Source: Phycisphaerae bacterium (GTDB lineage Bacteria; Planctomycetota; Phycisphaerae; Sedimentisphaerales; Anaerobacaceae). From it: a stretch of 38,234 bases of DNA. This document shows, piece after piece, positions 12,084-30,234 of the stretch. Numbering within the stretch: the first letter of the stretch is position 1; each line of letters starts with the position of its first letter. The position numbers and the translations under genes were made by a program. The stretch lies in the NCBI GenBank assembly GCA_018055905.1, contig JAGPGT010000002.1, forward strand, positions 1 through 38,234, read 5' to 3'. Below the pieces are notes generated by a model. It ran no database searches. It was not told where the DNA came from and worked only from the letters and a program-made list of their open reading frames with translations.

Positions 12084-12815
12084 CTACCGTTTGGGGGGAG
12101 GTTGAAGCGTGGCGGCCACTTCATACGCCACAAACTTACAGAAATTGAGGGAACTGACGACCACCAATTCCTCCTTCAGCGGCGCGGTGCTGAATTTCAA
12201 CTGTCCGCTGTAATATTTCCTGATTCGTTTCTGGATGCCCCTGTCCGTGCTGTCCCAAACCTGCTCCGTCGCCCAGATGAGCTGTCCGTCGGTCAGGTCC
12301 AGCAGTTTGAGGCGAAGACCGATCACCATGTGCGGATAGGGCTGATATTGCGTGATCGTGCCCAGGAGCAAGCCGTTGCTGCGAAGAGTTTCTCGCAGAA
12401 CGACCAGTTGCCGCATGGCTTGGAGAGTATCGAGATTCTCCTGGAGGCTGCGCCACGCCGGATCGTTCTGGCGGACGACCGTTAATCCGAAGAGTTGTTG
12501 TTTCTGGATCTCCAGGTACAGGGCCTCGGTAATCTCCTCGGAGATCGGGGGGTAAGCCGACCTGTTGTCCAATTCCACCAGGGCCACCCGCCCAAGGGCC
12601 CGGAGATCTTTGCTCGGGTCCAGGAAATAGGCGCCCGCCATTCCGTCGTCATTGACGGATTCGCATCCGCAGATGGGGCCCAGCGTTGCCGCCAGAAATA
12701 ACAGGCAGGATGGCACGAAAGCGGGCAGACGCGACAACTGCACCGCGACTGGTCCGCTCTTGTCGTCTCTCTGTTCTGGAGTTTCCCGGGGCCGACAGCG
12801 GCTGTTACAATCCAT
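12084..12815 (-). CDS. Lipoprotein with CsgG/LpoB-like fold, possible flagellar outer-membrane accessory
   Basis: A 243-residue probable lipoprotein. An unusually long polar N-terminus (about 28 residues) precedes a hydrophobic stretch and Cys51 in GPICGC, an imperfect lipobox. The mature part has alternating strands and helices: GRVALVELDNRSAYPPISEEITEALYLEIQ, a VLRET..NGLLLGTITQY block and IGLRLKLLDLTDGQLIWATE. This resembles the CsgG/LpoB/FlgT-middle-domain type of lipoprotein fold; no specific family was recognised. The start at 12815 has AAAGGAG upstream; it lies inside the end of the preceding lipoprotein gene (11-base overlap), so the two are translationally coupled. In the context of fliA and flhA, an outer-membrane ring or stator-side role like FlgO/FlgT is possible but unproven. 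Confidence 0.7.
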   Translation of the reverse strand: MDCNSRCRPRETPEQRDDKSGPVAVQLSRLPAFVPSCLLFLAATLGPICGCESVNDDGMAGAYFLDPSKDLRALGRVALVELDNRSAYPPISEEITEALYLEIQKQQLFGLTVVRQNDPAWRSLQENLDTLQAMRQLVVLRETLRSNGLLLGTITQYQPYPHMVIGLRLKLLDLTDGQLIWATEQVWDSTDRGIQKRIRKYYSGQLKFSTAPLKEELVVVSSLNFCKFVAYEVAATLQPPPKR

Positions 12816-13392
12816 TGGGTTCACTCCTTTGCAACATTGCGGCCGCGTCGGATCTCCCCGCGGCGCCTGCATCGGGATCGAGTGTCCCGCTGTGCTGCTG
12901 CTGAAGGACGCCGGCCTCAGCTTCACCTCCGAGGATCTCCAGGACCTTCAACAACGCTTCCAACTGTGCCTTGGCGGCGTCCCGCATCTCGCCGCGGAAC
13001 CCCAGGATATTGCTCTTCCAGTGATTGAGCTCATTGAGCATTTCGATCAACAGATTGTTGGCTTCGCTGAGTTCTTTCTGGGTCTGTTTGAGCTTGGAGT
13101 CCAGGTTGGCGACCTGCTGCCGGAGGTTCTCGTTTTCGTTGGCCAGACGCTGGTTCTCCTGCTTGAGAGTGACGGTTTGGTCGGAGAGCTTGGCGTACTT
13201 CTCCGACAGTTCGAGGGCAGATTCGACCGCTGTGCGCCCTTCCAGCGGGCTGTCGCGGAACCGCTTGGCCGCCCCTTCGGTTTCAGCGGGGGTCCTCGGC
13301 CTGGCGGCCGGGCTCGGCGTCGTCGTGCAACCGGCGATCGCCAGGGCAAAGGCTGCAAGCAACACGGTGATTGATTTGGCGGTTCGGGTCAT
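12805..13392 (-). CDS. Coiled-coil lipoprotein in the flagellar operon
   Basis: A 195-residue lipoprotein: signal peptide 1-21 with lipobox AIAGC (Cys22), a Pro/Ala-rich linker, then a continuous coiled coil (about 55-125; KLSDQTVTLKQENQRLANENENLRQQVANLD) and a helical segment, ending in a Gln/Ala-rich tail. The protein would sit in a membrane leaflet facing the periplasm. Start ATG 13392 overlaps the preceding stop as ATGA, with GGAGAA upstream. It overlaps the next lipoprotein gene by 11 bases. The function is unknown; the pairing with that second lipoprotein suggests one complex. Confidence 0.75.
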   Translation of the reverse strand: MTRTAKSITVLLAAFALAIAGCTTTPSPAARPRTPAETEGAAKRFRDSPLEGRTAVESALELSEKYAKLSDQTVTLKQENQRLANENENLRQQVANLDSKLKQTQKELSEANNLLIEMLNELNHWKSNILGFRGEMRDAAKAQLEALLKVLEILGGEAEAGVLQQQHSGTLDPDAGAAGRSDAAAMLQRSEPNGL

Positions 13393-14993: not shown

Positions 14994-17120
14994 TTATTCA
15001 CTCCTTATCGTCATTTCATCCGCGGCCACTGAAATCGTCGCCACGGGCGTTACCTCCGTTCCCATCACGATCTCGTCGTACGCCACCACTGGGAGCATCG
15101 GCAGGCTGCGCGCCAGCATCTGGGCCAAGGGGGCCCGCAGGCGGGCGTCACACAACAGGACCACCTTATCCCGCCCCTGGTCCATGGCCGATTTCCACGC
15201 GTCGGCCGCTTTGCGGTTCAGGTCGATGGCTGTTTCGGCCGAGATGCCCAGAACCAGTTCACCCCCTTCCTGGCGAAGCGAAGAGGTCAACTGGTGTTCG
15301 AAGACCGGATCGAATGCGATGGCGGCGACCTTTCCCTTGGCGTCCTTGTATTGTTCGGTGATCGTCCGCGCCAGGGACTTTCGTACCATCTCGGTGAGCA
15401 CGTTCACATTCTTGGTCTTGGAGGCGTTCTCGGCCAAGGCTTCCAGGATGGCGGTCAATTCCCGGATCGGAATCCCGCTGCGTAACAGATTCCGGAGCAC
15501 CCGCTGAAGGATCCCGGAAGAGATTTCGCCCTCGGTGCCGACGACCTCGCCGACCAGCGAGGGCTGATTCTTACGGAGTCGGTCGATCAGAACCTGCACG
15601 TCCTCACGGGTGAGCAACTCATCGGCATGTCGCCTGAGGGTCTCGGACAGATGGGTGATGAAAACTGATTCCGGGTCGATCACTGTGTATCCGGCCAGTT
15701 CCGCCGCTTCCTTTTTGGCGGCGGTGATCCACAAAGCGGGCAGGCCGTACACCGGCTCGGTGGTCTTGATCCCATCGACCTTTTGCTGTACGGTACCGGA
15801 ATCCATCGCCAGGAACATATCGGGTTCCAGAAACCCTTTGGCCACCGGGATTTCACAAAGTCGGATTTCGTAGGCGTTTGGTTCGAGATTGAGATCGTCC
15901 CGCAGGCGGACCAGCGGGATCACGATCCCCATTTGCTGGGCAAATTGCCGACGCAGGGCCCCGATGCGGTCGAAGATCGTATTGCTCTTTCGTGGGTCGA
16001 CCATGCCGATCAGACGCACGCCGACGTGAACGGAGACGCGGTCCATGTCGAGCAGGTCTTCGACGGGTTCTTTATCCGTTTTTTTCTTGTTGGGGGAGAC
16101 GGGGACCGTCTTGGCCGGGGTTTTCTCCAGCTTGGAAGCGGCCTTGCCGATCGCCGCCGCGCCGGCGGCCAGGAGCAGGAACTGGATCTTGGGCATCCCC
16201 GGGACCAGGGCCATAGCCCCGATGATAAAAGCCGCGGTCGTCAGCGGTTGACCCGTCCGGAGGAATTGTCGCGAGACGTCCTGGCCCACACTGTGGCTCG
16301 AGGAGATCTTGGTCACCAGAAAGCCCGAACTGATCGAGATGATCAACGAGGGGATCTGGCTGATCAGGCCGTCGCCGATGGACAGGATCGAGTAGGTCTG
16401 GATGGCGTTCATGACGCCCATGCCGCGGGAGTAGCCCATGGCGATGCCGCCGAGAAGGTTGATCGCGGTGATGATCAAGCCGGCTTTGGCGTCGCCGCGG
16501 ATGAACTTGCTGGCGCCGTCCATGGCGCCGTAAAACTCACTTTCTTTGACGATCTTGGCCCGGCGCTCGTTGGCTTGGGCCTCGGTGATGATCCCGGCGT
16601 TGAGGTCCGCGTCGATGGCCATCTGTTTGCCGGGCATCGCGTCCAGGGTGAACCGGGCGGACACTTCGCTGATGCGTTCGGCGCCCTTGGTGATGACGAT
16701 GAACTGGATGATGACCAGGATCAGGAAAATGACCAGACCGACGACGAGGCTGCCGCCGGCGACGAATCCGCCGAAGGTCTGTATGATCTGGCCGGCGTCG
16801 CCCTGCAACAGAATCAGTCGCGTCGAGGCCACGTTCAACGACAGACGAAACAGCGTCGTGAACAGCAGCAACGAAGGGAAGGTGGACAACTCCAACGCTT
16901 CTTTCGAGGACAGGGTCACGATGAGGACCGCCAAAGCCAGGGAAATGCTGCACGCCAGCAGAAGGTCCAGCAGCATCGTAGGCAAGGGGACGATCAAAGT
17001 GGCCAGGATCGCTACCAGACCCAAGGCCAGAATCGTGTTGCTGTGCGAGGCGAATGGGACGTTCAGGAGACTGTCGTCGCCGCCGGGCAAGCCTGCTGCA
17101 ATGGAGGGGTCTGAAGCCAT
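14994..17120 (-). CDS. flhA: Flagellar type III export gate protein FlhA
   Basis: A 708-residue inner-membrane export gate subunit whose nonameric cytoplasmic ring accepts flagellar substrates and chaperones. The N-terminal half (about 25-330) holds the hydrophobic helices. The FHIPEP family core is at 148-176 (RISEVSARFTLDAMPGKQMAID), and Asp210 lies in FIRGDAKAG, the loop whose Asp is essential in Salmonella. The C-terminal part (about 375-708) is the soluble substrate-docking domain (VHVGVRLIGMVDP, LREGG.LVLGISAETAID pattern). Length and domains are normal. The start at 17120 lacks a strong ribosome site. It lies between fliN and the small membrane gene; flhB, flhF and flhG are not adjacent. 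Confidence 0.96.
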   Translation of the reverse strand: MASDPSIAAGLPGGDDSLLNVPFASHSNTILALGLVAILATLIVPLPTMLLDLLLACSISLALAVLIVTLSSKEALELSTFPSLLLFTTLFRLSLNVASTRLILLQGDAGQIIQTFGGFVAGGSLVVGLVIFLILVIIQFIVITKGAERISEVSARFTLDAMPGKQMAIDADLNAGIITEAQANERRAKIVKESEFYGAMDGASKFIRGDAKAGLIITAINLLGGIAMGYSRGMGVMNAIQTYSILSIGDGLISQIPSLIISISSGFLVTKISSSHSVGQDVSRQFLRTGQPLTTAAFIIGAMALVPGMPKIQFLLLAAGAAAIGKAASKLEKTPAKTVPVSPNKKKTDKEPVEDLLDMDRVSVHVGVRLIGMVDPRKSNTIFDRIGALRRQFAQQMGIVIPLVRLRDDLNLEPNAYEIRLCEIPVAKGFLEPDMFLAMDSGTVQQKVDGIKTTEPVYGLPALWITAAKKEAAELAGYTVIDPESVFITHLSETLRRHADELLTREDVQVLIDRLRKNQPSLVGEVVGTEGEISSGILQRVLRNLLRSGIPIRELTAILEALAENASKTKNVNVLTEMVRKSLARTITEQYKDAKGKVAAIAFDPVFEHQLTSSLRQEGGELVLGISAETAIDLNRKAADAWKSAMDQGRDKVVLLCDARLRAPLAQMLARSLPMLPVVAYDEIVMGTEVTPVATISVAADEMTIRSE

Positions 17121-17169: not shown

Positions 17170-17562
17170 TCATCCTCGGGCCTCCGTCGCGGGCGCTGCG
17201 CCCACGATCTGGCGGATTCGCACCGCGAAACGATCTTCCACCACCACCACATCGGCTTCTGCAAACTTGGAATCCTTGAGGAACAGGTCTGCCGGCGCCT
17301 CAATGGGCTTTGCGAGCTGGAGAACCGACCCCGGACCGAGCTGCAAGAGCCGTCGAACCGGGATTTGAGTCGATCCGAGCACCACCGTGATCGGGATGTC
17401 CATGTCCAGCAGGATATCCAACTGGCCGGTGCCGGTTCCCATGGCCCCTTGCGGGGCTTCGGGGAATTCGGCGGTTTGGACCACCGTCTTGCCTTCAGCC
17501 TGCGGCGGCGTCCGGTTTTGATCCTGTTGGACCGGGTTTTCTGCAGTTGCAGTGTCGGGCAT
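17170..17562 (-). CDS. fliN: Flagellar motor switch protein FliN
   Basis: A 130-residue C-ring protein. The C-terminal SpoA domain (about 48-125) shows LDILLDMDIPITVVLGSTQIPVRRLL, LGPGSVLQL and FAVRIRQIVG, the standard FliN pattern. A disordered Ala/Pro/Gln N-terminus of about 45 residues precedes it. The start at 17562 is chosen for AAAGGA upstream; the frame is open further but runs back into fliM. It follows fliM after seven bases. With FliM and FliG (not in this window) it forms the switch that sets rotation direction. Confidence 0.93.
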   Translation of the reverse strand: MPDTATAENPVQQDQNRTPPQAEGKTVVQTAEFPEAPQGAMGTGTGQLDILLDMDIPITVVLGSTQIPVRRLLQLGPGSVLQLAKPIEAPADLFLKDSKFAEADVVVVEDRFAVRIRQIVGAAPATEARG

Positions 17563-17569
17563 GGCTGCT

Positions 17570-18580
17570 TTATCCTTTCTTGGGTTCGCCAGAGGTTTTC
17601 GGTCCGGAGGGTTCGGCTGTCTGTCCTGTCGGAGAGTCCTTGAGCACGATCGCATAGTGACCGTCCGACTGGGCGGGCCGGCCCTGGAAGACAGGCCGGC
17701 CTTCAATCGTCAACTCCACCAAATCATGAATCGATTTGTCCAGGAGCAGGATGTCGCCAGGGGCGAGGTCCAGGATCTCCTGGAATCCGATCTGAATCGT
17801 GGCCAGCCTGGCCGTCACGGTGACGGCCATCTGCTGGAGATGCTCCATCAAAGCCTGTGAGAGTTCCTTAGCGGTGGCCTGCTGGGGCGTGGGCGGTGTT
17901 TTGCCCACCAAGGCCGCCAGCCTGTCACACGCGAGCACAAAGGTGAGATTGGAGGGGTCGTTTTTTTCGTTCTCCCTGGCTTGGAACGTGATTCGGCAGA
18001 TCTCCTGCGTCGGTTCGAATTGGATCGCGGGGGCTCCCTTGCTCAGGCGACCGGTACTTGTAAGGATTTCCTGTGGTCTCAGCGAGGCGAGAAAGACTTC
18101 CACCACCGCCGCGACCAGATCCGACAGCAGGGACTCCTCGAGAGACGACAGTGACCGGTTGGGATTGCTTGCCGAGTCGGTGTCGCCCAGCAGTCTGGAG
18201 ACCCAGCCGAGGGTGGTCTGGGACGAAGCTGCGAAGAAACCGCAAGGCGGCTCTTTCTCCGGGCCGAATGCCTGGCAATAACTGTCGTTCACGTCGAAAC
18301 CACGGTGTAGGTCGGCTCCGAACAGTTGCGTAACCGCGGTCGGAGCAACGTCGAAATCCCGGCTGAAGAACCGTGTGAATACGTCTCCCAGTCGGGCGGC
18401 CACCTGGCTCATGATCGCAGCCAGCCGGTTCAGCTGATCAGAATTCAGATAGTGCGGATCCCGCCAATCATAGGGTTTCAGATCCCCTCTGGCGGGCGTC
18501 TCCTGGACGGGGACCGATCCCACGGCCGCCAGGAGCTGGCCAATCCGGGTTTTGCCGAGATGGTCGATCGACGGATGCAT
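17570..18580 (-). CDS. fliM: Flagellar motor switch protein FliM, divergent
   Basis: A 336-residue switch protein. The middle CheC-like domain runs about 45-235 (QLNRLAAIMSQVAARLGDVFTRFF, SLSSLEESLLSDLVAAVVEVFLASL). The C-terminal SpoA domain (about 255-318) has VTVTARLATIQIGFQEILDLAPGDILLLDK. The N-terminal peptide HLGKTRIGQLLAAVG sits where CheY-binding FliMs have LSQDEIDALL, and the acidic residues are missing. The GGxG-type loop was also not found. Stop and start meet as TGATG with fliL; a GTG one codon earlier (18583) is possible. Family membership is secure from the SpoA end and gene order, but response to CheY is doubtful. Confidence 0.88.
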   Translation of the reverse strand: MHPSIDHLGKTRIGQLLAAVGSVPVQETPARGDLKPYDWRDPHYLNSDQLNRLAAIMSQVAARLGDVFTRFFSRDFDVAPTAVTQLFGADLHRGFDVNDSYCQAFGPEKEPPCGFFAASSQTTLGWVSRLLGDTDSASNPNRSLSSLEESLLSDLVAAVVEVFLASLRPQEILTSTGRLSKGAPAIQFEPTQEICRITFQARENEKNDPSNLTFVLACDRLAALVGKTPPTPQQATAKELSQALMEHLQQMAVTVTARLATIQIGFQEILDLAPGDILLLDKSIHDLVELTIEGRPVFQGRPAQSDGHYAIVLKDSPTGQTAEPSGPKTSGEPKKG

Positions 18581-19152
18581 CACTGAATCGCGAATTCCTT
18601 GAACAGGATGTTCATGATGCGCGGCTGTGCATTTGGAAACAGGCCCTGATTGAAGATATCGCTGATGTTGGATTGCATGCGGAGCAGGTTCGTTTTACCT
18701 CGGGTGTCCTCGATCGTCTGATTGGACAGGTAAAGGGTCAACCAGTGCTTGAGAAGAGGTTTTTTCTGATCGAGGACGGGTTTGGCCTCCGGTTCGGCCC
18801 AGGCCCCGGTGATTTCCAGGGTCAGGGTGATGCGGACATATCGCGTGACGCCTGGATCGTTGAGGTTGGCCACAACCGGTTCAAGCTCATAGAACCAGTT
18901 GTCGGTTTTGGGGTCTTTTGATTTGCTGTTTTTGATCGTAGGTTCGGGCTCCCCCACGGGTGCGGCAGAGGCGGTCTGAACCCGCCCGCGGGTGCCGAAC
19001 AAGCGGCCCACGATGAAACCCGCAGTGGCGAAGACGACGACCGTGCCGCCCACGATCAACAACGGCATGACTTTGGCCGCCAAACCCTTCTTTTCGGAAA
19101 GCGGTCCCTCCGTTTTTTGTTGGGTTTTTTCAGCCTTCCCTGGTTCTGCCAT
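18580..19152 (-). CDS. fliL: Flagellar basal body-associated protein FliL
   Basis: A 190-residue single-pass membrane protein: cytoplasmic start rich in K/E/Q, membrane helix about 28-50, a flexible linker, then the periplasmic FliL domain (about 85-190). The domain shows FYELEPVVANLNDPGVTRYVRITLTLEI and ends with PNAQPRIMNILFKEFAIQ, close to the family's 'i.V.df.iQ' end. FliL rings the stator units and supports their activity. AAGGA lies eight bases before the ATG. It overlaps the fliM start (TGATG), so the two are coupled. Confidence 0.92.
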   Translation of the reverse strand: MAEPGKAEKTQQKTEGPLSEKKGLAAKVMPLLIVGGTVVVFATAGFIVGRLFGTRGRVQTASAAPVGEPEPTIKNSKSKDPKTDNWFYELEPVVANLNDPGVTRYVRITLTLEITGAWAEPEAKPVLDQKKPLLKHWLTLYLSNQTIEDTRGKTNLLRMQSNISDIFNQGLFPNAQPRIMNILFKEFAIQ

Positions 19153-19198: not shown

Positions 19199-20776
19199 TT
19201 ACGATACCGGCAGCAGGGGACGTCGGATGCGACCGACGACCTCCTGGCTCTCCATGGACTCCTGTTGACGGTATCGACGTATCTTTTCTCGCAAGGTGCG
19301 ATCGCTGATGCCAAGGACTTTGGCCGCCCGGGTCTGGTTACCGGAGGTTTGTCGCAACGTGTCGAGAATCGCCCGACGCTCAATCTCGTCCAGCGGGATA
19401 CCTCCCAACCCGGTCGACTCCTCGGCCGACGAAACGGGCCGTATGGCAGGCGAAACGAATTTGGATTTGGCTTCTTGCCCGATCGTCACATTTTGCGTGG
19501 AGGAGAGCTGCCGCGATTCCGTCAGCGGCTGCAACTCGTCGAACAGCCAGCTGACGTCTGCCAGAGACAGGACCGGACCGGAGCCCAGGATCAGCGAGGT
19601 CAGCACGACGTTGCGCAACTGCCTGACGTTGCCCGGCCAGTGATATCGGGAGAAGATTTCCATCATCGTCGGGTCGAGCGATTCGATTCTCCGCTCTGTC
19701 TCCTTGGCATAGAGATTGACGAAATGCCAGGTCAGTTCGGGCAGGTCCTCCAGCCGTTCCCGGAGCGGGGCCGCCACGATGCGTGCGGCGCTGAGACGAT
19801 AGTACAAGTCCGGACGAAACCGGCCCATCTGCACTTCGTGAAGCAGATCCCGGTTTGTCGTACTGATGATTCGCACGTTCACTTTGATGTTGTCGTTGCC
19901 GCCGACCCGTTCGAACTCCTGTTGTTCGATGATGCGGAGCAGCTTGGCCTGGAACGTGGGAGGAGTTTCCGTGATTTCGTCAAGCAACAGGGTACCGCCG
20001 TGGGCCATTTCGAATCGGCCCTTGCGCTGGGTGTAGGCGCCGGTGAACGCCCCTTTCTCGTGTCCGAACAGTTCGCTTTCCAGAAGGCTGTCGCTCAAGG
20101 CGGCGCAGTTGACCCGCACAAAAGGTCCCATCGCTCGTCGACTTCTGTGGTGGATCAGCAGAGAGATCAATTCCTTGCCTGTCCCACTTTCGCCGGTGAT
20201 CAGCGCCGGAACCGAGGTCGGAGCGATCCTCTCGGCCAAGGCGATAGTCTGAAGCATTCGAGGACTTTTACCGACGATTTGGTACAAGCAGTGGTCGCCT
20301 TCCTGGGCCGACGCCGCGGTCGCCACCCGCCGATTCGGCAGCAAGGTGTCGAGAATTTCTTCAAGGGCCTGAGGATTCAGGGGTTTGAGCAAGAAATTCC
20401 GACAACCGGCTTGGATGGCCCGGACGGCTGCCTGCGTCCCCCAGTACAGGTCGCGCGTTTGCGACGGTTCTGCCGAACGCCCGGACATCATGACCACGGG
20501 CATCTCGGGAGCGACCGATCGCATGGCGGCGAGCAATTCAAAGCCACCCGACGGGCCTTTGACACCGGTAATCTGTTCGCTCAAAAACGCCAGATCGCAC
20601 GGGGCGCGGTCCAAAGCGTCCATCGCCGCTTTGCGTCCGCCGGCCAGCTTGGCGCTGATACCTTTGCGCGCGAGGACCTCCAGCATGAGCCGGATGGTCT
20701 GTGGTTCGTCGTCCACGATCAGGACAGAGGCGCCGTAATGAGGAATTGAGGATGACTGTATAGCTCGTTGATTCAT
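19199..20776 (-). CDS. Sigma-54-dependent activator with degenerate receiver (NtrC/FleR-like)
   Basis: A 525-residue activator: receiver-like domain (about 15-145), AAA+ domain (about 168-400) and Fis-type helix-turn-helix (about 470-505, GNQTRAAKVLGISDRTLREKI). The AAA+ part is complete: GESGTGKE (195-202), GAFTGA (242-247) for sigma-54 contact, and TLLLDEI for Walker B. The receiver keeps the acidic pocket V-D-D-E (21-24), S98 and K131, but the phosphoacceptor Asp is replaced by Ser66 (DLAFLSEQ), and extra residues follow it. It probably works without classical phosphorylation. Its operon starts at a sigma-54 promoter, so autoregulation is possible. It lies between a TPR gene and fliL. Confidence 0.92.
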   Translation of the reverse strand: MNQRAIQSSSIPHYGASVLIVDDEPQTIRLMLEVLARKGISAKLAGGRKAAMDALDRAPCDLAFLSEQITGVKGPSGGFELLAAMRSVAPEMPVVMMSGRSAEPSQTRDLYWGTQAAVRAIQAGCRNFLLKPLNPQALEEILDTLLPNRRVATAASAQEGDHCLYQIVGKSPRMLQTIALAERIAPTSVPALITGESGTGKELISLLIHHRSRRAMGPFVRVNCAALSDSLLESELFGHEKGAFTGAYTQRKGRFEMAHGGTLLLDEITETPPTFQAKLLRIIEQQEFERVGGNDNIKVNVRIISTTNRDLLHEVQMGRFRPDLYYRLSAARIVAAPLRERLEDLPELTWHFVNLYAKETERRIESLDPTMMEIFSRYHWPGNVRQLRNVVLTSLILGSGPVLSLADVSWLFDELQPLTESRQLSSTQNVTIGQEAKSKFVSPAIRPVSSAEESTGLGGIPLDEIERRAILDTLRQTSGNQTRAAKVLGISDRTLREKIRRYRQQESMESQEVVGRIRRPLLPVS

Positions 20777-20794: not shown

Positions 20795-21772
20795 CTACAA
20801 CTGAGGCGTGGCGGCGACCGGTCCGGACCGGCTCTTCTGATACCAAGTAATCAATCGCCCATGGGCTTTCGCCAACTCGGTCCAAGGCGACTGGGGGTAC
20901 TCGGAGACAAGCTTCATGTACGTTTCTTGGGCCTTGTTTGCATCGGTTTCTCGGAGGCAGTTACCGAGCTGAAAGAGGATCCAGGCGCGGTCGGCATCGT
21001 AGGAAGGATCGATTCGATTGATCCGATCGAGCGCCTTGGCGTAGAACGGCGCCGCTTCCACAGGGCGTCCGCTCAGGAACAGCAACTCCGCCATCTCCAG
21101 CGGATCCCGAACTTGGTTGGGATTTTGCTGGAGCAGATCCAACGTCTTCTGAGTTTTGTTGGATGGGGATGCCGACGACCCGGCCGCCACCGTTGCGGAA
21201 GCGGTTGGTTTCGCTGGGACCGGGCTCGGGCCGATTTCCGGCGATGGTGGCTTGGACGGAGATTCGTCGGGGACCTTGAATGCCGGCCCCGCGTCTTTGC
21301 TGGCGAATTTTACGGATCGGACTTGGTGGATCAGACGCTTGAGAGCCAAACTCTCTTCGACGTCCTGAGTCGTCTCCGGCATGGCGATTCGACTCGACCA
21401 GAGTTCCTGGAAGAGCGAACTCTTCGAATCGGTGTTCTCGCGAGAGGTGATTTCCCCGCGGCGGATCGGTCCGGCGTTCTCCAAGGCCTTGGCCTGATTT
21501 CGCGTGCGGTCGAGCAGCTTGGCCAGAGGGATCGGCGTGTTCGATGTTTCGGAAGGCACAGTTCCTCCCGGCCCCCTTGGGCCGACGGCGCAGGGATCGG
21601 TGAGCCCGCCCTCCGCATAGGCGGGCGTCTGACTGCGGGCGGTTACGCGAGGTTGACCGGCGTTGGCGGCCGCGAGAGCCTTGACACAGAGGAGCGCAGA
21701 CAAGATCACGCATGTTCTTGCCGGGGGCGAATTCCAAAGGGTTGTTTTCATGGTTATTGAATCCTTTTTCAT
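20795..21772 (-). CDS. Exported TPR-repeat protein in the flagellar operon
   Basis: A 325-residue protein: signal peptide (RTCVILSALLCVKALAAANA, ending near residue 38), a long low-complexity Pro/Ser/Thr region (about 40-205) and a TPR block at the C-terminus (about 220-318; PLEMAELLFLSGRPVEAAPFYAKAL, AWILFQLGNCLRETDANKAQETYMKLV, SEYPQSPWTELAKAHGRLITWY). It is probably periplasmic. The start is uncertain: ATG 21772 or ATG 21751; both leave the signal intact. It follows the large TPR membrane protein by 15 bases and precedes the activator by 18. It may dock with that protein. Confidence 0.75.
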   Translation of the reverse strand: MKKDSITMKTTLWNSPPARTCVILSALLCVKALAAANAGQPRVTARSQTPAYAEGGLTDPCAVGPRGPGGTVPSETSNTPIPLAKLLDRTRNQAKALENAGPIRRGEITSRENTDSKSSLFQELWSSRIAMPETTQDVEESLALKRLIHQVRSVKFASKDAGPAFKVPDESPSKPPSPEIGPSPVPAKPTASATVAAGSSASPSNKTQKTLDLLQQNPNQVRDPLEMAELLFLSGRPVEAAPFYAKALDRINRIDPSYDADRAWILFQLGNCLRETDANKAQETYMKLVSEYPQSPWTELAKAHGRLITWYQKSRSGPVAATPQL

Positions 21773-21787: not shown

Positions 21788-24433
21788 TCACGGGGCGAGA
21801 TTCACACCCGGTGATTTCTGTACGAAATTGGGGTCCGTCGCATTGTCGTACTGGTTCAGCATGACCGCCATCGCACGGTCGTACTGTCCTTGTTTGCGGT
21901 AAGCCTCCGCCAGCAGATCCAGAACAGGGGGCCTGTCTGCGACCGTTCCTCGCTCCAGCAGTTGCGAACACACGGAGATCGCCTGGCCGACCTGTCCCAG
22001 ACGCAGGCACGTGCGGGCCAATTCCCGACCGATCTGCTGGGCCTGCGGCCCTGGCTCGGCCATAGCGAACGCATCGCTGAGGGTCTTACGGGCCGATTCA
22101 AGGTCGCCATTGCTGATTTGGCATGCGGCCAGCTCCAATGCGACGCGGGCTTTGAGGTCCGGATTCGGAAGGAACTGTCCTTTTTCCTGCAGAAGGGAGG
22201 CCGCTTTATCCGTCAATCCGATCAAGCGAAGCACCTGGGACCGTAGCAGAAGCAACTCGATGCTTTCCTGCTGGGACAGTTGCCATCCATTGGTGGTTTC
22301 AAGCATGTGAAGGGCTTCCACGAGTTGGTTTTGCTCGATGTATGCTCGGACGAGCACGCCCACGGTTTCCACATATTGTTGACGGGACAAATCGCCCTTG
22401 AGTGCCAGCTTCAGTGCGACATGAGCCTGCTGCGGTTTGTGCAAGGCCAGATACGCTTTGCCCAGCAGAAGGCAAGCAGCATGGAATTCCGGCTGACTCT
22501 GGTCCCGCACGAGCGAGATATAACGATTGAGCCATTGAGCCGTCCGCTCGAAGTCCCCCACCTCGTATGCGCAGCGACCGGCGCCCAACGATGAAACGGT
22601 CTGGGATTCGATCGAGAGGCCGAGGTTGTACACTCTCTGATACAAGCCCCCCGCCTCCTCGAATTTCCCGGCCTTCATGGTCGCATCGGCCAGATGCAGA
22701 TACGCTGTGTCCGCCAAGTCTGTTCCCGGGTACACTTCCACGAGCTGTTTGAGGTCTGCGTGGGCCCCGACATAGTCGCGGAGCCGCACCTTCAGTTTGC
22801 CCGACTCCAGTAGAGATCGCGGGGCCAAGCCATGTTTGGGAAACCGGTTTGCGACCAGTTTGAACTCGCCGATGGCCTCGTCGAGCTGTCCCTGCAGGGT
22901 CTGGAGCAAGCCGAGGGCAAAGTGTCCGTTGGGGGCCCGCTGATCGGTTTCGGCAGTCAGGAGAAACCGCTGCCACAGGGAGATGGACTCCTCGGTCAAC
23001 AGTCGGGTGTGGTCGGAGAGAGAAGAGTAGGTCGTCGGGTCGATCACGTCGATGTTGTTGCTTTTGTCGTCGAACCGTGCGACCAGACCGACGCTGCCGG
23101 CGGCCACCGAGACCGCCTGTTGCGCCGTGGCCGCGGACAGATACAGATAGACGGGTCTTTTCCTCACATTCTCTTCGGCCGGACTGGCTTTGCCGTTGTC
23201 CATCCATCGCACGTTCAATCCGGCGTTGGAGGCAAACCGCGACAGCAGTTCTTCGATCGATGCCCCGTTGCAGACGACCACCCAGCGACCTGTCGCGCTG
23301 TTGCCGACAGCGGGGCGGATCTGCGGGCTCAGTGCTGCTTCGTCGAGTTTCTCGGACCCGGAAGCGAGAAAGACCCGCAACTGCGCCTCGTCCATGTCGA
23401 CGAAAGGATCGATGTCCGGATGGCGACCCCACAAATCCGACGGCAACCCCGTGTCGGCGTCGCTGAGCGACAGGAGATTACGGGACACCGCCTCGCAGAC
23501 CAGGAACCAACACTGCTGCTGGACGGCCTGCACCCATTTTTCGTCGATCTCCGCCACCCCGATCAGGCCGATCGTTTGATAGGCTCGACCGGCCGCTTCC
23601 AGATATCGTTTCCGCTCGATCAGCATCGTGCTCTGATAGTAGCGGGCCAGTGCTCGGAGGATCGGCAGGCGGCTCAGAGACACCGTTCGAAACAAGTTGT
23701 CAGCTTGGGCGATATCCCCGCTCTTGCTGCTGCACAAAGCCATGCGTAGAAGGAGAAAGTCGCGAAGCGGCTGGTTCTCATTCGTACTGGCGAGACGTCG
23801 GTGGAGTTTGTCGAAAGCAACGAACGCGTGTTCGTACTGGCGGTTCTGATAAAGCCTGGCGGCCAGTTGCAGCGACAACGGCTCAGGGCTGGGAATGCTC
23901 GATTCGATAAGGTCCGCCGGTTCGGATTGAGCGGGTGACAACGTTCCTAGCCGGGGCGTTTCGCGTCTGGAATCCCAGGTGCTCTGGGGGATTGATTGCG
24001 GCGCGCTCGTCGGAAGCGACGGCGCACCGAGGATCGCGGGCAGTTCTGCTCTCTGTTGTGACTGGGAGGTCCGGCCTGCATCGTCGTGGTGCGTAAGACG
24101 TGCCGCCAGTGCGTAAACCAGACCGGCTACCGTGACCAGAATGGCCAACCCCAGGAGCTTCTGAATATTTGAGAGTCGATTCAAATGCACAGAGGGGTGC
24201 GCCCTGCGAAAGGGGATAGGCCTGGGCGCCGCCGGAACGGGGGGGGCGGGTTCCGAGGCGAAGCCGACCGGCGACGAGAAGAGGTCGTCGTACGCCGGCT
24301 GTTCGGCCATCGGCACGCCAAAGAGGTCCCCATCGGGCGGCATGTGCGTTTGGCCCAGTTCTCCGCGGTTCGCTTGTTTCTTTCTTCGGAACATTATGTT
24401 TTGGCACAGGTTTTCCAGGTTTTCCTGGGACAT
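21788..24433 (-). CDS. Large single-pass TPR protein with secretin-N-like insert, first gene of the leftward flagellar operon
   Basis: An 881-residue protein of no named family. Order: cytoplasmic Pro-rich tail (1-90), one membrane helix (about 93-113), a Ser/Pro linker, TPR-like helices (about 185-315), an alpha/beta segment (about 382-467), then many TPRs to about residue 860 (for example HFALGLLQTLQGQLDEAIGEFKLV, YLHLADATMKAGKFEEAGGLYQRVY, LLGKAYLALHKPQQAHVALKLALKG). The inserted segment (GRWVVVCNGASIEELL, then SAATAQQAVSVAAGSVGL) looks like the STN/secretin N-domain fold that sits at the mouth of secretins and TonB receptors. As first gene after a sigma-54 promoter it is likely an early periplasmic scaffold. 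ATG 24433 was taken; ATG 24394 is the alternative. Confidence 0.75.
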   Translation of the reverse strand: MSQENLENLCQNIMFRRKKQANRGELGQTHMPPDGDLFGVPMAEQPAYDDLFSSPVGFASEPAPPVPAAPRPIPFRRAHPSVHLNRLSNIQKLLGLAILVTVAGLVYALAARLTHHDDAGRTSQSQQRAELPAILGAPSLPTSAPQSIPQSTWDSRRETPRLGTLSPAQSEPADLIESSIPSPEPLSLQLAARLYQNRQYEHAFVAFDKLHRRLASTNENQPLRDFLLLRMALCSSKSGDIAQADNLFRTVSLSRLPILRALARYYQSTMLIERKRYLEAAGRAYQTIGLIGVAEIDEKWVQAVQQQCWFLVCEAVSRNLLSLSDADTGLPSDLWGRHPDIDPFVDMDEAQLRVFLASGSEKLDEAALSPQIRPAVGNSATGRWVVVCNGASIEELLSRFASNAGLNVRWMDNGKASPAEENVRKRPVYLYLSAATAQQAVSVAAGSVGLVARFDDKSNNIDVIDPTTYSSLSDHTRLLTEESISLWQRFLLTAETDQRAPNGHFALGLLQTLQGQLDEAIGEFKLVANRFPKHGLAPRSLLESGKLKVRLRDYVGAHADLKQLVEVYPGTDLADTAYLHLADATMKAGKFEEAGGLYQRVYNLGLSIESQTVSSLGAGRCAYEVGDFERTAQWLNRYISLVRDQSQPEFHAACLLLGKAYLALHKPQQAHVALKLALKGDLSRQQYVETVGVLVRAYIEQNQLVEALHMLETTNGWQLSQQESIELLLLRSQVLRLIGLTDKAASLLQEKGQFLPNPDLKARVALELAACQISNGDLESARKTLSDAFAMAEPGPQAQQIGRELARTCLRLGQVGQAISVCSQLLERGTVADRPPVLDLLAEAYRKQGQYDRAMAVMLNQYDNATDPNFVQKSPGVNLAP

Positions 24434-24490: not shown

Positions 24491-24507
24491 AGCAACAACT
24501 GTGCCAA
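24491..24507 (-). promoter_or_regulatory. Consensus sigma-54 promoter of the leftward flagellar operon
   Basis: On the minus strand TTGGCAC (24507-24501), AGTTG, TTGCT (24495-24491). This matches TTGGCAC-N5-TTGCW at every defined position, with correct GG-GC spacing. Transcription should start near 24480, giving a leader of about 47 bases before the ATG at 24433. Nothing else between 24434 and 24490 looks like a gene. Confidence 0.88.
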
Positions 24508-24773: not shown

Positions 24774-26216
24774 TCAGCATGGGGAAGAAGACAGAGTCTT
24801 GATCGGCTCGGAAGCGGCCAGAGAGAATTCCTCGATGCTGGGTTTGTCTTTCTGCAGGTTGTACTGTTTGACCTTGGCATATAAGGTGGCGCGTGTGATC
24901 CCCAGCAGGGCTGCAGCCTGCGTCTTCTGCCAACCGGTCTCGTGCAGCGCGCGGGCGATCAGTTCGCGTTCGGCCTTTTCGAGCGAGAAGTCTTTCATGC
25001 GTCCCTCTTCGCTCCGGCCGGGGCGAGGTTCCCCGTCAATGGGGTCGATGACAATACTGGAAAGGCCGATTTTGTCCGTGGTTTCGAACAGGATAGCTCG
25101 CTCGATGACATTTCGAAGCTCTCGCACGTTACCCGGCCAGTCGTGCCGGGACAAGGCCTCAAGGGCAAGTTTTGTGATGGAAGAGACCGGAGTCGGTCGA
25201 TGCGAGCAAATGATCGAGGTCTTCAGGAAGTGCCGAGCCAGTAGCGGAATGTCTTCTCGCCGTGCCGGCGACCGCAGGGGCGCCATCATGATCGGGCAGA
25301 TGTTCAAGCGGTAATAGAGATCCTCGCGGAACCGCTTCTCTCGTACTTCCTTTTTAAGGTCGCGGTTGCTGGATGCGATGATTGTAGCTTTACACTCGAT
25401 GTCCTTGACGCCCCCGACCTTGCGGAACGATCGTTCCTGCAGAATCCGCAGAAGTTTGGCCTGCAGCTCCAAGGGCATCTCACTGATTTCGTCGAGGAAG
25501 ATCGTCCCGGTGCCCGCGGTTTCGAGTAGCCCGGTCTTGTCGCGGTCGGCGCTGGTGAACGAGCCTTTGACGTGTCCGAACAGTTCGCTTTCCAGCAGGG
25601 TGGCGGTCAATGCTGCGCAATTGACCGCGACGAACGGCTCTTCCCGATGGCGAAGGGTGTGCACCGCGCGGGCGGCGACTTCTTTCCCCGTGCCGGTGTC
25701 GCCAACGATCAGGATGGGATTGCACCGGCTGGCGGCGACGAGTTTGATCATCCGGAGCGTCTGGGCGATGGCGGGGCTTCGGCCGGCCATCGCCACCGAG
25801 GCGGCCGTCTCGTCAAGAAAGAACTCCGAGTCGTTGGGTTCGCAGGACTGTTTTGCGGGGGACTCTTGTACGGTTGCTGTAATCTCCCGCAGTCTCGCCA
25901 ACTCGTTCTGCCCTCGATGGCAGACGAGCAAACCCGCTTGCCGATACTGTTCCTCGCTGAAGGGACTGTCGCTCGCAGGAATCACGATTGCGGTCGGAAC
26001 CGCACGAGGGTCCTGTAATGTTGCCGTCAGGCAGTTTTGTAAATGGACGGGCGCAAATGCGCCCTCGAACACCACCAGGTTTGCGGACACCGTCGCGAGG
26101 ATGTCGGCCGCCTCTGCCAAATCGTCGGCCGCGAACACCTCCTGGGCCAACTCCTGGGCGACGGCATGAATCTGAGAGTTCTTGCTGACGACGACGATTC
26201 TTTTCAGATGACTCAT
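24774..26216 (-). CDS. Second sigma-54-dependent activator with pseudo-receiver and variant GAFTGA loop
   Basis: A 480-residue activator: receiver-like domain (about 1-120), AAA+ domain (about 143-385) and Fis-type helix-turn-helix (about 425-460, WQKTQAAALLGITRATLYAKVKQYN). Walker A is GDTGTGKE (172-179) and Walker B IFLDEI (239-244). The sigma-54 contact loop reads GSFTSA (218-223) instead of GAFTGA; the key Thr remains. The receiver lacks the Asp pair (VVVSKNSQ) and the phosphoacceptor (LVVFEGAFAP), as in FleQ/FlrA-type master regulators. The start at 26216 is preferred because the 31 residues possible upstream do not look like protein. It sits between the two sigma-54 promoters and is the best candidate to control both. 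Confidence 0.9.
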   Translation of the reverse strand: MSHLKRIVVVSKNSQIHAVAQELAQEVFAADDLAEAADILATVSANLVVFEGAFAPVHLQNCLTATLQDPRAVPTAIVIPASDSPFSEEQYRQAGLLVCHRGQNELARLREITATVQESPAKQSCEPNDSEFFLDETAASVAMAGRSPAIAQTLRMIKLVAASRCNPILIVGDTGTGKEVAARAVHTLRHREEPFVAVNCAALTATLLESELFGHVKGSFTSADRDKTGLLETAGTGTIFLDEISEMPLELQAKLLRILQERSFRKVGGVKDIECKATIIASSNRDLKKEVREKRFREDLYYRLNICPIMMAPLRSPARREDIPLLARHFLKTSIICSHRPTPVSSITKLALEALSRHDWPGNVRELRNVIERAILFETTDKIGLSSIVIDPIDGEPRPGRSEEGRMKDFSLEKAERELIARALHETGWQKTQAAALLGITRATLYAKVKQYNLQKDKPSIEEFSLAASEPIKTLSSSPC

Positions 26217-26352
26217 ATCTACCCGAGGGTCTGACTTCTTTGGCTCACCGATGATTGTTTTGTCACCTTCATGGAGACACCCCCCTGATCGACTGGTGGT
26301 TCGTGACATCTTTAATTTTTATTGGACGCCATGTGCGTCACTCGCTGGTTTT

Positions 26353-26677: not shown

Positions 26678-26694
26678 CTGGCACACTCATTGCT
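26678..26694 (+). promoter_or_regulatory. Consensus sigma-54 promoter of the rightward flagellar operon
   Basis: CTGGCAC (26678-26684), ACTCA, TTGCT (26690-26694) fits the YTGGCAC-N5-TTGCW consensus with correct spacing. Predicted transcription start is near 26705, leaving a leader of about 69 bases to the flgD ATG. It is nearly the same as the promoter at 24491-24507, so both operons should fire together. Confidence 0.88.
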
Positions 26695-27196: not shown

Positions 27197-28885
27197 ATGT
27201 CTTACGCGTTGTCCTCAGGCGTGACCGGGTTGCAGGCCCATCAACAGATGTTGGACGTCGCCGGCAACAACATTGCGAATGTGAATACGACCGCATTCAA
27301 GTCCAGTCGGATCGGATTCGCGGAACTGCTGAGCCAGACTCTTTCCCAGGCTTCTCAGCCGACCTCGCAGGTCGGCGGAACGAATCCGCAGCAGATGGGC
27401 AGCGGCGTCGGAATCGCCGCGATTACCCCGAATATGACCCAAGGCAGCATCGTCAACACAGGGAATCCGCTGGACGTGGCGATCGAAGGAGAGGGCTATT
27501 TCGTGGTCAGCAACGGCGATCAACAGCTCTACACGCGAGCCGGTGCTTTCGGGGTGGACGAAAACGGTCACCTGGTCGACCCGGCCACCGGCTATCGTGT
27601 GCAGCGGATCGGTTTGACCGGTGAACTCGAGGGGTTCCAGATCACAGGCGACAGCAGCATTCGGATTCCGTACGACGTCGCCTTGCCGGCCAAGGCCACC
27701 AGCGAGATCGCGTTCACCGGCAACCTTAGTGCCGACGCCGTGGGCGTCGCGAAGGCGCAGGTGCTTTCCTCCAGTCTTACCTACAAGACCGCCGACGGGA
27801 TCGAAGCTTTGGCGACTACGGAGATCGATCAGCTCGTTCAGTTCAGCGGAGGCTCGGGCGCCGGCGGCCAGTTGGGCGGCGGTCAGACAGGCACGCTGAC
27901 CTTCTCCGGCTATAACAAGGACGGAACCCCTCTGAGCACCGGTCTGACGTTCACGGTCACGGGAACCACGACTCTGGGGGACCTGATCGATCACCTCAAC
28001 AACAATGTATTGACCGACGCCACCGCGTCTTTAACCAACGGCAAGATCATAATCACCGATAACGAAGCGGGATACAGTAGAACCGATCTTTCGATGTCGT
28101 ATTCAGGCAGCGGTTCGTTGCAGACTCCCCCCTATTTCGAGATGACCACTGTTGGGGGCAATGAATCCAAGACCATGAACATCGCGATATACGACACGCA
28201 GGGTGCCAAGCATGTTTTGTCGGCAACCCTCGTGCGGACCGACACCATCAACACCTGGGACCTGATTCTGACTTCCATCACGGGCAATGTTCTGGAACTC
28301 AGTCCCGAGAATCGACGTGTTCATGGCTTGACGTTCGATCCCCAAAGCGGCGCGTTTATGGGGCTTCCGAGCACCGAAGTGCCTCAGTTCGTTATTTCTT
28401 TCACACACGATCCGTCACACACCCAGACCATCTCATTGAAACTGGGGACCCTCGGTTCGTTCGACGGGCTCACCCAGTTCGCGGGCAACTCCACCGCAGT
28501 GGCCAGAGAACAAAACGGGTACGAGGCGGGAAGTCTGTCGGCGGTCTCGGTCAGCGGCGACGGCGTGTTGATCGGAGCTTTCACCAATGGTGTCAAGAAG
28601 GACTTGGCGACCTTGGCGGTGGCCTTGTTCCGCAACCCTGCGGGTCTTCAGAGCGCCGGAAATGGGTACTTTGCCCCTTCGGCCAACAGCGGCGGGGCGG
28701 TGTTGACCCAGGCCGGCAGCAGCGGTGCCGGCTCCATCCATGGCAGTGCTCTGGAGAAGTCGAACGCCGATGTGGCCACGGAATTCGTCAGCTTGATCGA
28801 GGCCCAGAACGGCTTTCAGGCGAATGCTCGCACCATCCGCGTGGCCAATGACATCCTTCGCGAGTTGACAAGTCTGATTCGGTAA
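27197..28885 (+). CDS. flgE: Flagellar hook protein FlgE
   Basis: A 562-residue hook subunit exported by the flagellar type III system. The N-terminal rod/hook motif is ALSSGVTGLQAHQQMLDVAGNNIANVNTTAFKSS. A D1 strand region follows (GNPLDVAIEGEGYFVV, YTRAGAFGVDENGHLVD), then a long D2/D3 region (about 150-440), and the C-terminal coil LIEAQNGFQANARTIRVANDILRELTSLIR. It is larger than Salmonella FlgE (403) because of the outer domains. AGGAGAA precedes the ATG. It stands between flgD and the PilZ gene, the second gene of the operon. Confidence 0.95.
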   Translation: MSYALSSGVTGLQAHQQMLDVAGNNIANVNTTAFKSSRIGFAELLSQTLSQASQPTSQVGGTNPQQMGSGVGIAAITPNMTQGSIVNTGNPLDVAIEGEGYFVVSNGDQQLYTRAGAFGVDENGHLVDPATGYRVQRIGLTGELEGFQITGDSSIRIPYDVALPAKATSEIAFTGNLSADAVGVAKAQVLSSSLTYKTADGIEALATTEIDQLVQFSGGSGAGGQLGGGQTGTLTFSGYNKDGTPLSTGLTFTVTGTTTLGDLIDHLNNNVLTDATASLTNGKIIITDNEAGYSRTDLSMSYSGSGSLQTPPYFEMTTVGGNESKTMNIAIYDTQGAKHVLSATLVRTDTINTWDLILTSITGNVLELSPENRRVHGLTFDPQSGAFMGLPSTEVPQFVISFTHDPSHTQTISLKLGTLGSFDGLTQFAGNSTAVAREQNGYEAGSLSAVSVSGDGVLIGAFTNGVKKDLATLAVALFRNPAGLQSAGNGYFAPSANSGGAVLTQAGSSGAGSIHGSALEKSNADVATEFVSLIEAQNGFQANARTIRVANDILRELTSLIR

Positions 28886-28980
28886 GTCGGAAAGGGATTT
28901 CTGCGGATCACGAGAACCGAGGACCAGCGAATCTGAAGTCCCTGAAATCCAGGGGCTGCCGCGTGTGGTTGGGGGAACCT

Positions 28981-30234
28981 ATGCTGTGGATCGAGAACAT
29001 CATGTTGACGCTATCGCCCCTGGAGCGATGGGAAGCGGCGCGTCGGTTGAACACCGACCGCTCCTACAACGACAGCTTCACCGTTCTGGCGGGGATTCTG
29101 CTGGTGGTGCTCGTGGTGTTGCTGATCTGGGTCAGCTATACGCGGCGGGCGCAACGGCGCGCCCAGACCCGCGAGGTCTTCGCGGAGAACGCAATGCGAC
29201 GGGGGTTGGGAGCCCGCGATCGGCAGATTCTGCTGGCGATCGTGATGCGAAGCGGTCTGCGGCGGACGCAGGACGTGTTCACCGCGGTCGATGCGTTCGA
29301 TCGCGGCGCCTTGAAGCTGATTTCCGAATGCATGCGGACTCGTACGCCCGACGAGAACGAACACTTGCGGGCGGAAATTGGTCGTTTGAGAGAAAAACTG
29401 GGGTTCCAGATCGCCTCGCCCGTCGGTGGGATCGTAGGTTTGGGCCAGGCCAGCAGTCGGGACATCCCGATCGGCCGGTCCGTGGAACTGGTCCGCAACG
29501 GTTCGCCTGAAGAAGGGGTCGTCCGGGGCGACGTGATGAGAAACGATGAGATCGAATTCGCCATCATGTTGAAGGAACCTCTTGTCAGCAAACCCGGGGA
29601 CTCCTGGCGGGCGAGATATTACAGCGGCCTGTCCGCCTGGGAATTCGATACGTCGACGGTGCGATGCGACGGACGTAAACTGATTTTGAACCATAGCGAC
29701 ACCGTGCAGTCGACGAATCGCCGGCGCTTCCCTCGTGTGTCGGTTCGAGGTCACGCGTTGATCGCGTATTTGCCGTTTCGACAGGGACGCGTCTGCCGGG
29801 TGGACATGAGCTCCGATGGGATCAAGACGGTCTTGGGGGCGGCCGGCAACCGCCTGGAGAGCGAGACCCCGACCTTCACGGAAGGTCGCGTGACTGAATT
29901 GGCGGGTCCTGGATTGCTGCTCGACGCCCCGATTCAGGTGCATCCCGGAGATCGGGTTCTCGTGGTGTTTACGCTCGATCCCGGCATGGCACCCAGAGTG
30001 CCCGGTGGGTGGGGCACCATCGCGGCGATCGGCAAGGTCAGACACGGTCGCAGCACCGACAGCGGAATGTCGATCGCGGTGGAACTGACCGGGTTGACCG
30101 ACGCGGAGGTGGACGAACTTGCGTACATTACGGCCGAGATCTCCTCGCGGCAGGAGGAGACCGAAGGGCCCGGTGTGATTCCGGCGGCGGGTCTGTCTTC
30201 CCCCGTTTCGGCCGCAAACGGAGAATGGGCATAA
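28981..30234 (+). CDS. Membrane-anchored YcgR/PilZ-type flagellar brake protein
   Basis: A 417-residue protein with one membrane helix (34-53), a cytoplasmic helical linker (about 60-140), a YcgR-N/flagellar-brake-like barrel (about 160-240; IPIGRSVELVRNG, GDVMRNDEIEFAIMLKEP) and a PilZ domain (about 247-390). Both cyclic-di-GMP motifs are present: R248-R-F-P-R252 (RxxxR) and D275-M-S-S-D-G280 ([D/N]xSxxG). YcgR slows the motor when it binds cyclic-di-GMP, so this protein probably does likewise from a membrane-bound position. The ATG at 28981 has GGGGGA just upstream; a GTG at 28963 is possible. It sits between flgE and flgF, which is unusual. Confidence 0.85.
   Translation: MLWIENIMLTLSPLERWEAARRLNTDRSYNDSFTVLAGILLVVLVVLLIWVSYTRRAQRRAQTREVFAENAMRRGLGARDRQILLAIVMRSGLRRTQDVFTAVDAFDRGALKLISECMRTRTPDENEHLRAEIGRLREKLGFQIASPVGGIVGLGQASSRDIPIGRSVELVRNGSPEEGVVRGDVMRNDEIEFAIMLKEPLVSKPGDSWRARYYSGLSAWEFDTSTVRCDGRKLILNHSDTVQSTNRRRFPRVSVRGHALIAYLPFRQGRVCRVDMSSDGIKTVLGAAGNRLESETPTFTEGRVTELAGPGLLLDAPIQVHPGDRVLVVFTLDPGMAPRVPGGWGTIAAIGKVRHGRSTDSGMSIAVELTGLTDAEVDELAYITAEISSRQEETEGPGVIPAAGLSSPVSAANGEWA

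Follow-up and report, generated by a model that had tools for sequence, protein, structure and literature searches.

What role does a large membrane-anchored TPR protein play at the head of a flagellar operon? The question is raised by a locus of a Phycisphaerae bacterium (assembly GCA_018055905.1, contig JAGPGT010000002.1, positions 1-38,234, forward strand; this whole stretch of 38,234 nt is referred to here as the window), in which an open reading frame at 21788..24433 (-) encodes 881 amino acids. We refer to the protein as STN-TPR. Its likely start codon lies at 24394 (M14, MFRRKKQ), giving a protein of 868 aa; M14 is the likelier start because relatives start at or near this residue, and because in one relative (L034) no alternative start codon exists upstream of it. 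Two residue numberings are in use: that of the 881-aa ORF, adopted by an earlier first-pass annotation of this DNA, and that counted from M14.

Architecture of STN-TPR

The AlphaFold2 model of STN-TPR (36 sequences; mean pLDDT 79.8) predicts, in this order, a tail of ~75 residues, a transmembrane (TM) helix, a linker, a TPR array, a domain with the fold b-a-b-b-a-b-b, and a long second TPR array; tail and linker are disordered. In M14 numbering, the single TM helix spans residues 76-101 (24092..24169, -), the N-terminal helical repeats 175-310 (23465..23872, -), the strand/helix domain 370-451 (23042..23287, -), and the C-terminal TPR superhelix 459-845 (21860..23020, -). Across 35 relatives, the 15 residues before the helix contain on average 2.8 Lys and Arg, and the 15 residues after it 1.3; by the positive-inside rule, this excess places the N-terminus in the cytoplasm and the C-terminal part in the periplasm. 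Model and residue counts thus bear out the first-pass description of a large membrane TPR protein with a cytoplasmic tail and one membrane helix.

Foldseek searches with the full-length protein returned only generic TPR proteins; a Campylobacter scaffold (9hmf_K) appeared at rank 34 and was given no weight. Sequence searches against PDB gave generic TPR matches or nothing significant, PADLOC (searched for anti-phage defence TPR proteins) had no matching model, and a search of Rfam yielded no match.

The first-pass annotation had noticed a secretin-N-like segment at about residues 382-467, and had suggested that its predicted structure be compared with secretin N-domains. The model places the domain at residues 383-464 (881-aa numbering), and the comparison finds the N0/STN fold present. 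Folded alone (111 residues), the domain reached a pLDDT of 87.9 and a pTM of 0.81. Its matches in PDB were mostly of N0/STN type: DotD, PilQ N0, the PupA signalling domain, LspD, GspD N0, InvG, MxiD, EscC and XcpQ. Probabilities were mostly 0.9-1.0, and TM-scores against single-domain targets went up to 0.66-0.70. E-values were all at least 0.008; values this weak are to be expected with 111 residues, and the predicted N0/STN assignment rests on the consistency of the matches. Pfam searches across family members gave best E-values of 2.9e-6 for GspD-N0 and 5.2e-5 for STN, the full-length (Brocadiales) matches falling below the curated cut-offs; the window's own domain matched only TcpQ (E 0.0014). 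The domain was found at a collinear position in Brocadiales and Planctomycetia homologues using hhalign, with probabilities of 95.6 (Planctomycetia-Phycisphaerae), 92.8 (Planctomycetia-Brocadiales) and, more weakly, 71.1 (Phycisphaerae-Brocadiales). The predicted fold of residues 383-464 is thus that of the STN/secretin N0 domains of PilQ, GspD, DotD and PupA. Such domains are usually N-terminal in outer-membrane pores or receptors, whereas here the domain lies between the TPR arrays of an inner-membrane protein.

The tail carries a tandem motif, DLFGV...DLFSS, with a spacing of 14 (24272..24328, -; family form [DE]-[LVI]-F-[AGS]-[GS]). The looser pattern [DEQS]-x-F-[AGSTV]-x was found at least once in 34/35 Sedimentisphaerales tails and at least twice in 28/35 (shuffled tails gave 4.0 and 0.2, respectively); these counts are descriptive, since the pattern was defined after viewing the sequences. 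In 23 of 30 pairs the spacing is exactly 14. A tandem [D/E]-x-F-[A/G/S] motif, mostly at a spacing of 14, is thus present in most Sedimentisphaerales tails, which is a new feature of these proteins. The motif was recognised only in this order, while the periplasmic part is conserved across classes.

The flagellar operon in Sedimentisphaerales

A sigma-54 promoter, TGGCACAGTTGTTGC (24492..24506, -), matches TGGCAC-N5-TTGC exactly and lies 59 bases upstream of the annotated STN-TPR start. All 36 relatives with upstream sequence have a site with at most one mismatch, exact in 29 of them (expected number of exact sites, 0.02 per region). Tightly packed 3' of STN-TPR is a gene for a small TPR protein with a signal-peptide-like N-terminus (20795..21772, -; gap of 15 bases), a partner gene found in all three classes discussed below. 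It is followed by a FlgR/FlbD-like sigma-54 response regulator (REC-AAA-Fis; 19199..20776, -; gap of 18 bases), identified by domain matches and synteny, and by FliL (18580..19152, -; gap of 46 bases; PF03748, E 1.5e-14). Next come a divergent FliM (17570..18583, -; domain matches), FliN (17170..17706, -; PF01052) and FlhA (14994..17120, -), which FlhA trees assign to the clade that always accompanies STN-TPR. Directly upstream of STN-TPR, here and in nearly all relatives, is a second sigma-54 activator (24774..26309, -). The exact site and the flagellar neighbours agree with the initial proposal that STN-TPR comes first after a sigma-54 promoter and heads a flagellar operon.

The relatives carry the organism titles Phycisphaerae, Sedimentisphaerales or unclassified Planctomycetota. 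Nearly all wide loci keep the order second sigma-54 activator, STN-TPR, small TPR, sigma-54 regulator, FliL, FliM, FliN, FlhA and FliA. Both gene order and promoter are conserved across Sedimentisphaerales, which had not been noted in the first pass.

At 75.7 bits, the window's FliM stays below the FliM cut-off (219.6); the protein is highly divergent, with identity going down to 20-25% inside the order. Downstream of fliA, most relatives have a conserved gene pair (12084-12926, -, and 12805-13392, - in the window). Both products are lipoprotein-like, the first with a coiled coil and the second without Pfam match, and both are possible outer-membrane motor parts. On the other side, a second exact sigma-54 site (26679-26693, +) faces the divergent hook operon, with its FlgE-like gene at 27197. 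In several loci (L044, L047, L104, L117, L122, L125, L128 and L130) the FlgE-like hook gene has an extra ~0.35 kb mid-gene, and matches in two pieces. Between the flgE-like and flgF/G-like genes, nearly all relatives encode a conserved protein (28963-30234, + in the window) with a weak PilZ match (E 0.0013), possibly a c-di-GMP brake.

Distribution in Planctomycetota and two FlhA clades

Searches for homologues covered Planctomycetota. Confident STN-TPR homologues were found in 42 of the 61 relatives, all with FlhA, and in none of the 12 genomes lacking FlhA. The seven FlhA-bearing genomes without STN-TPR were the fragmented genome G002 and six from one family, in which the absence is accounted for by the FlhA tree (four of the six are on the tree). 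Phycisphaerae FlhA proteins form two clades: the STN-TPR-linked ones all fall in one (38/38) and the others in the second (27/27), with one change on the tree. When added, Brocadiales and Planctomycetia FlhA joined the STN-TPR-linked clade (support 100/100), and in a tree with 20 further Planctomycetia FlhA, STN-TPR systems were again separated from the rest by one change; in this last tree L248 forms one very long branch, is not firmly placed, and is to be ignored. We call the flagella of the STN-TPR-linked FlhA clade system I, and those of the other clade system II. Each of these deep clades contains both Phycisphaerae and Planctomycetia (FlhA loci L031-L062, L149-L162, L169-L197 and L247-L266).

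Among the genomes in the trees, six from Phycisphaerae and three from Planctomycetia have both FlhA types. In G423, G363, G390, G136 and G279, STN-TPR shares a contig with the first FlhA type, within about 10-20 kb; G395, G410 and G415, where the contigs of STN-TPR and FlhA differ, and G457, whose homologue is on a separate contig, stand outside this linkage count. No protein in seven loci around system-II FlhA matched STN-TPR family profiles at E 0.01. STN-TPR thus tracks one of two deep Planctomycetota FlhA clades and is absent from the other, even in two-type genomes, a pattern new to this analysis. The two clades are two ancient planctomycete flagellar systems with different gene orders; in the open-access literature we found no description of either the STN-TPR protein or the two systems.

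Weak TPR-only matches occur across the phylum (E 1e-4 to 1e-10); we counted them as noise from the repeats, except where a match ran the full length or lay in a flagellar context, and a match in G035 (E 6e-4) was rejected as spurious. Relatives widespread away from flagellar genes, which the first-pass annotation had named as evidence against itself, were looked for, and the confident homologues sit in the flagellar cluster of genomes with one FlhA type.

The layout of the protein differs among classes. In Phycisphaerae and Planctomycetia, TM helix, TPRs, STN and TPRs form a single chain. Brocadiales (families f49 and f78) encode a TM-TPR protein (about 250-300 aa) and then an adjacent STN-TPR protein (570-625 aa) with a signal peptide and an N-terminal STN; hydrazine synthase was present in 6 of 8 genomes tested from these families. 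Where the contig allows, the genes 3' of the Brocadiales STN-TPR are small TPR, histidine kinase, FlgR-like regulator, FlgB, FlgC, FliE-like, FliF and FliG, several of these names resting on sequence reading and partial matches.

Profile comparisons were used to pair the parts; the hhalign E-values given here are single comparisons, and it is the differences in score that carry weight. The C-terminal TPR superhelix is collinear with the repeats of the Brocadiales STN-TPR (E 1.9e-33), with a score of 244 against 76 for the TM-TPR control. The best Brocadiales counterpart of the N-terminal part is the separate TM-TPR gene (score 69), a pairing that is weakly specific given controls of 58 and 48. 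The small TPR proteins match each other with a score of 119 (controls 66 and 47; E 1.4e-16 for Phycisphaerae-Brocadiales and 2.4e-15 for Planctomycetia-Brocadiales). Planctomycetia thus share the fused layout and anammox Brocadiales encode two adjacent genes, again a new observation. The split and fused forms may be read as Rosetta-stone evidence for a scaffold, the role considered next.

A candidate scaffold of the flagellar motor

The window's own genome (G000:C78) encodes, between fliJ and motA (L218:4269-5003, -), a TM/coiled-coil protein ending in a FlgY/MotE-like domain, also present in relatives. MgtE_N was detected clearly in a Brocadiales member (E 1.8e-16), and weakly in G058 (0.0014) and in Planctomycetia (G287, 0.016). 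In the window genome's own copy it is below detection, and this copy is 38% identical to the G058 protein, which has weak FliG_M/MgtE_N matches. The Pfam MgtE_N model alone missed the Sedimentisphaerales copies, which were located by their position between fliJ and motA. In the system-I genomes tested, motA is followed by two MotB-type genes in tandem (L213, L209, L211, L217, L218 and L224), and the single system-II genome tested, G040, has one. In genomes with STN-TPR, a gene for a FlgY/MotE-like protein thus lies between fliJ and the series motA-motB-motB2, an association also seen here for the first time. The second Brocadiales MotB copy (L211:2215-2901) has SYASLATLL in place of the FSD/YGD of the others, a replacement that removes the channel Asp. 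Several MotB-type copies give weak OmpA-type matches or none.

TPR proteins in a comparable setting are known. In Campylobacter and Helicobacter, PflA spokes and the proximal-disk rim of PflB, with FliL and FlgY, form a stator scaffold (PMC12222027, PMC11870540); in alphaproteobacteria such as Cereibacter, MotK with MotE acts in stator scaffolding or recruitment (PMC10954123). PflB resembles STN-TPR in its cytoplasmic N-terminal region, single TM helix, long two-part periplasmic TPR array and flagellar linkage, together with FliL and a FlgY-like gene (PMC12222027, PMC11870540), and STN-TPR has every one of the first four features. We found no sequence relation between the two. The two parts of the PflB array are separated by short strands (a hook-and-loop beta pair), those of STN-TPR by the STN/N0 domain; the antiparallel beta pair of PflB (mid-chain/C-terminus) was not found in STN-TPR, and the AlphaFold2 model has no strand near the C-terminus. 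PflA, for its part, combines a TPR superhelix with a domain that contains beta strands and is similar to a portion of a secretin (PMC12222027, PMC11870540), an AMIN-type beta-sandwich like PilQ AMIN. The Brocadiales STN-TPR gene, with its signal peptide, N-terminal STN and TPRs, is laid out as in PflA but with a different domain. The window protein lacks the signal peptide and N-terminal AMIN-type sandwich of PflA and MotK, and has instead a TM anchor and an internal N0/STN domain. We classify STN-TPR outside PflA/PflB, as inspection of the model showed neither the beta pair of PflB nor the AMIN domain of PflA. PflA and PflB are separate proteins in Campylobacter, whereas STN-TPR has features of both in one chain.

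In the MotK/MotC system with MotE, rotation likewise requires a periplasmic TPR protein, which is accompanied by a MotE/FlgY protein and stators, with linkage of MotE-like and stator genes (PMC10954123, PMC13023049). MotK, however, has a signal peptide and an AMIN domain resembling that of the secretin PilQ, without TM anchor or STN (PMC10954123). The Borrelia FlcA-D/FlbB collar also places TPR scaffold proteins on a FlgY-like base, although the Flc proteins are separate and no STN domain is named for them (PMC7990780, PMC13023049). The FlgY/MotE-like gene beside fliJ and the stator genes is a feature that STN-TPR genomes share with FlgY-dependent spoke systems.

By analogy, we consider it probable that STN-TPR belongs to one of the two ancient flagellar motors of planctomycetes, as a periplasmic stator or spoke scaffold that is anchored in the inner membrane and works like PflA/PflB or MotK, with STN in place of AMIN. 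Held in the inner membrane by its TM helix, the protein would extend into the periplasm as an elongated structure made of both TPR arrays and the intervening STN/N0 domain. Its tail, with the repeated D/E-x-F-A/G/S, would bind a component of the motor or of the pole in the cytoplasm, as suspected for the PflB tail. The first-pass annotation had suggested a structural scaffold of an unusual motor; given the FlgY/MotE-like gene, FliL, the stator genes and the known TPR scaffolds, this is the best-supported reading, although we infer the periplasmic location, contacts and scaffold role from composition, genetic linkage, and the PflA/PflB/MotK parallels. In its favour are the strict flagellar association, the single FlhA clade, the invariant operon with FliL, and the FlgY/MotE-like gene by the stators. 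On the other hand, TPR arrays have many roles and STN domains also serve in signalling and docking; the two adjacent sigma-54 regulators, in Brocadiales joined by a histidine kinase, would equally fit a regulatory role; and the PflB beta pair and PflA sandwich missing from the model, like the undetected MgtE_N, may also speak against it. A more specific form of this proposal is doubtful: in system I, the N0 domains would surround the rotor as a ring or rim, in the manner of secretion pores, with the TPR arms and tail holding a stator that has two different MotB subunits.

Alternatively, STN-TPR could be an assembly checkpoint sensor, its STN domain and TPRs sensing from the periplasm when the MS-ring, export gate or rod is complete, and its tail signalling to the sigma-54 system (FlgR-like regulator, FlgS-like kinase) that controls late flagellar genes. 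STN domains of TonB-dependent receptors are signalling domains, the gene is flanked by two sigma-54 activator genes and followed in Brocadiales by small TPR, histidine kinase and FlgR-like regulator, and the cytoplasmic motif is conserved. Still, this is unlikely: the long TPR arrays and small TPR partner are more than a sensor needs, there is no cytoplasmic output domain, the kinase is not seen in the Sedimentisphaerales operon, and STN-TPR is co-expressed there with the motor parts FliL, FliM, FliN and FlhA.

We think it quite unlikely that STN-TPR is an envelope-coordination factor of CpoB/YbgF or PilF type, which would couple flagellar assembly to remodelling of peptidoglycan or outer membrane (e.g., at the P-ring), its STN domain binding an outer-membrane or rod part. 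The protein has YbgF/CpoB-like TPR matches, but the NCBIfam model tol_pal_ybgF scores 61.2 bits, far below its cut-off of 90.1. The Brocadiales small TPR partner (coiled coil and C-terminal TPR) does resemble CpoB, and N0 domains in secretion systems dock onto periplasmic partners; the inner-membrane anchor with cytoplasmic tail and the strict restriction to one FlhA clade speak against this reading.

A placement factor seems very improbable. Such a polar landmark would recruit placement or C-ring proteins through the conserved tandem cytoplasmic motif, the periplasmic part being merely a pole anchor. TPR landmarks such as FimV/HubP exist, but with the opposite topology (periplasmic LysM, cytoplasmic TPR), and cross-class conservation lies in the periplasmic part rather than in the motif of one order. 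Finally, a generic TPR protein lying by chance beside flagellar genes, as the weak TPR-only matches across the phylum might suggest, is contradicted by full-length homologues, synteny, promoter and FlhA-clade restriction, and we give it almost no credence.

It has been stated that sequence does not allow flagellar TPR scaffolds such as PflA/PflB, MotK and Flc to be recognised across taxa (PMC11870540). PflA has a PilQ-like AMIN domain, and PflD a PilQ-N1 domain (PMC11870540). The STN-TPR family can be traced through three classes of one phylum by its sequence and its synteny; it has a domain that serves as a marker, exists in fused and split forms, and cleanly marks one of two flagellar types. 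Should STN-TPR indeed form an N0-ring scaffold, this would be a type of flagellar scaffold for which we found no description in any phylum. We found no image of a planctomycete flagellar motor in the literature searched, and this motor is a directly testable case: the scaffold reading predicts extra periplasmic densities in system-I motors and none in system-II motors, as well as a TM-TPR/STN-TPR complex in anammox bacteria. More generally, our data suggest that borrowing of secretin periplasmic domains recurs in motor scaffolds, with AMIN in PflA and MotK, N1 in PflD, and now N0/STN.
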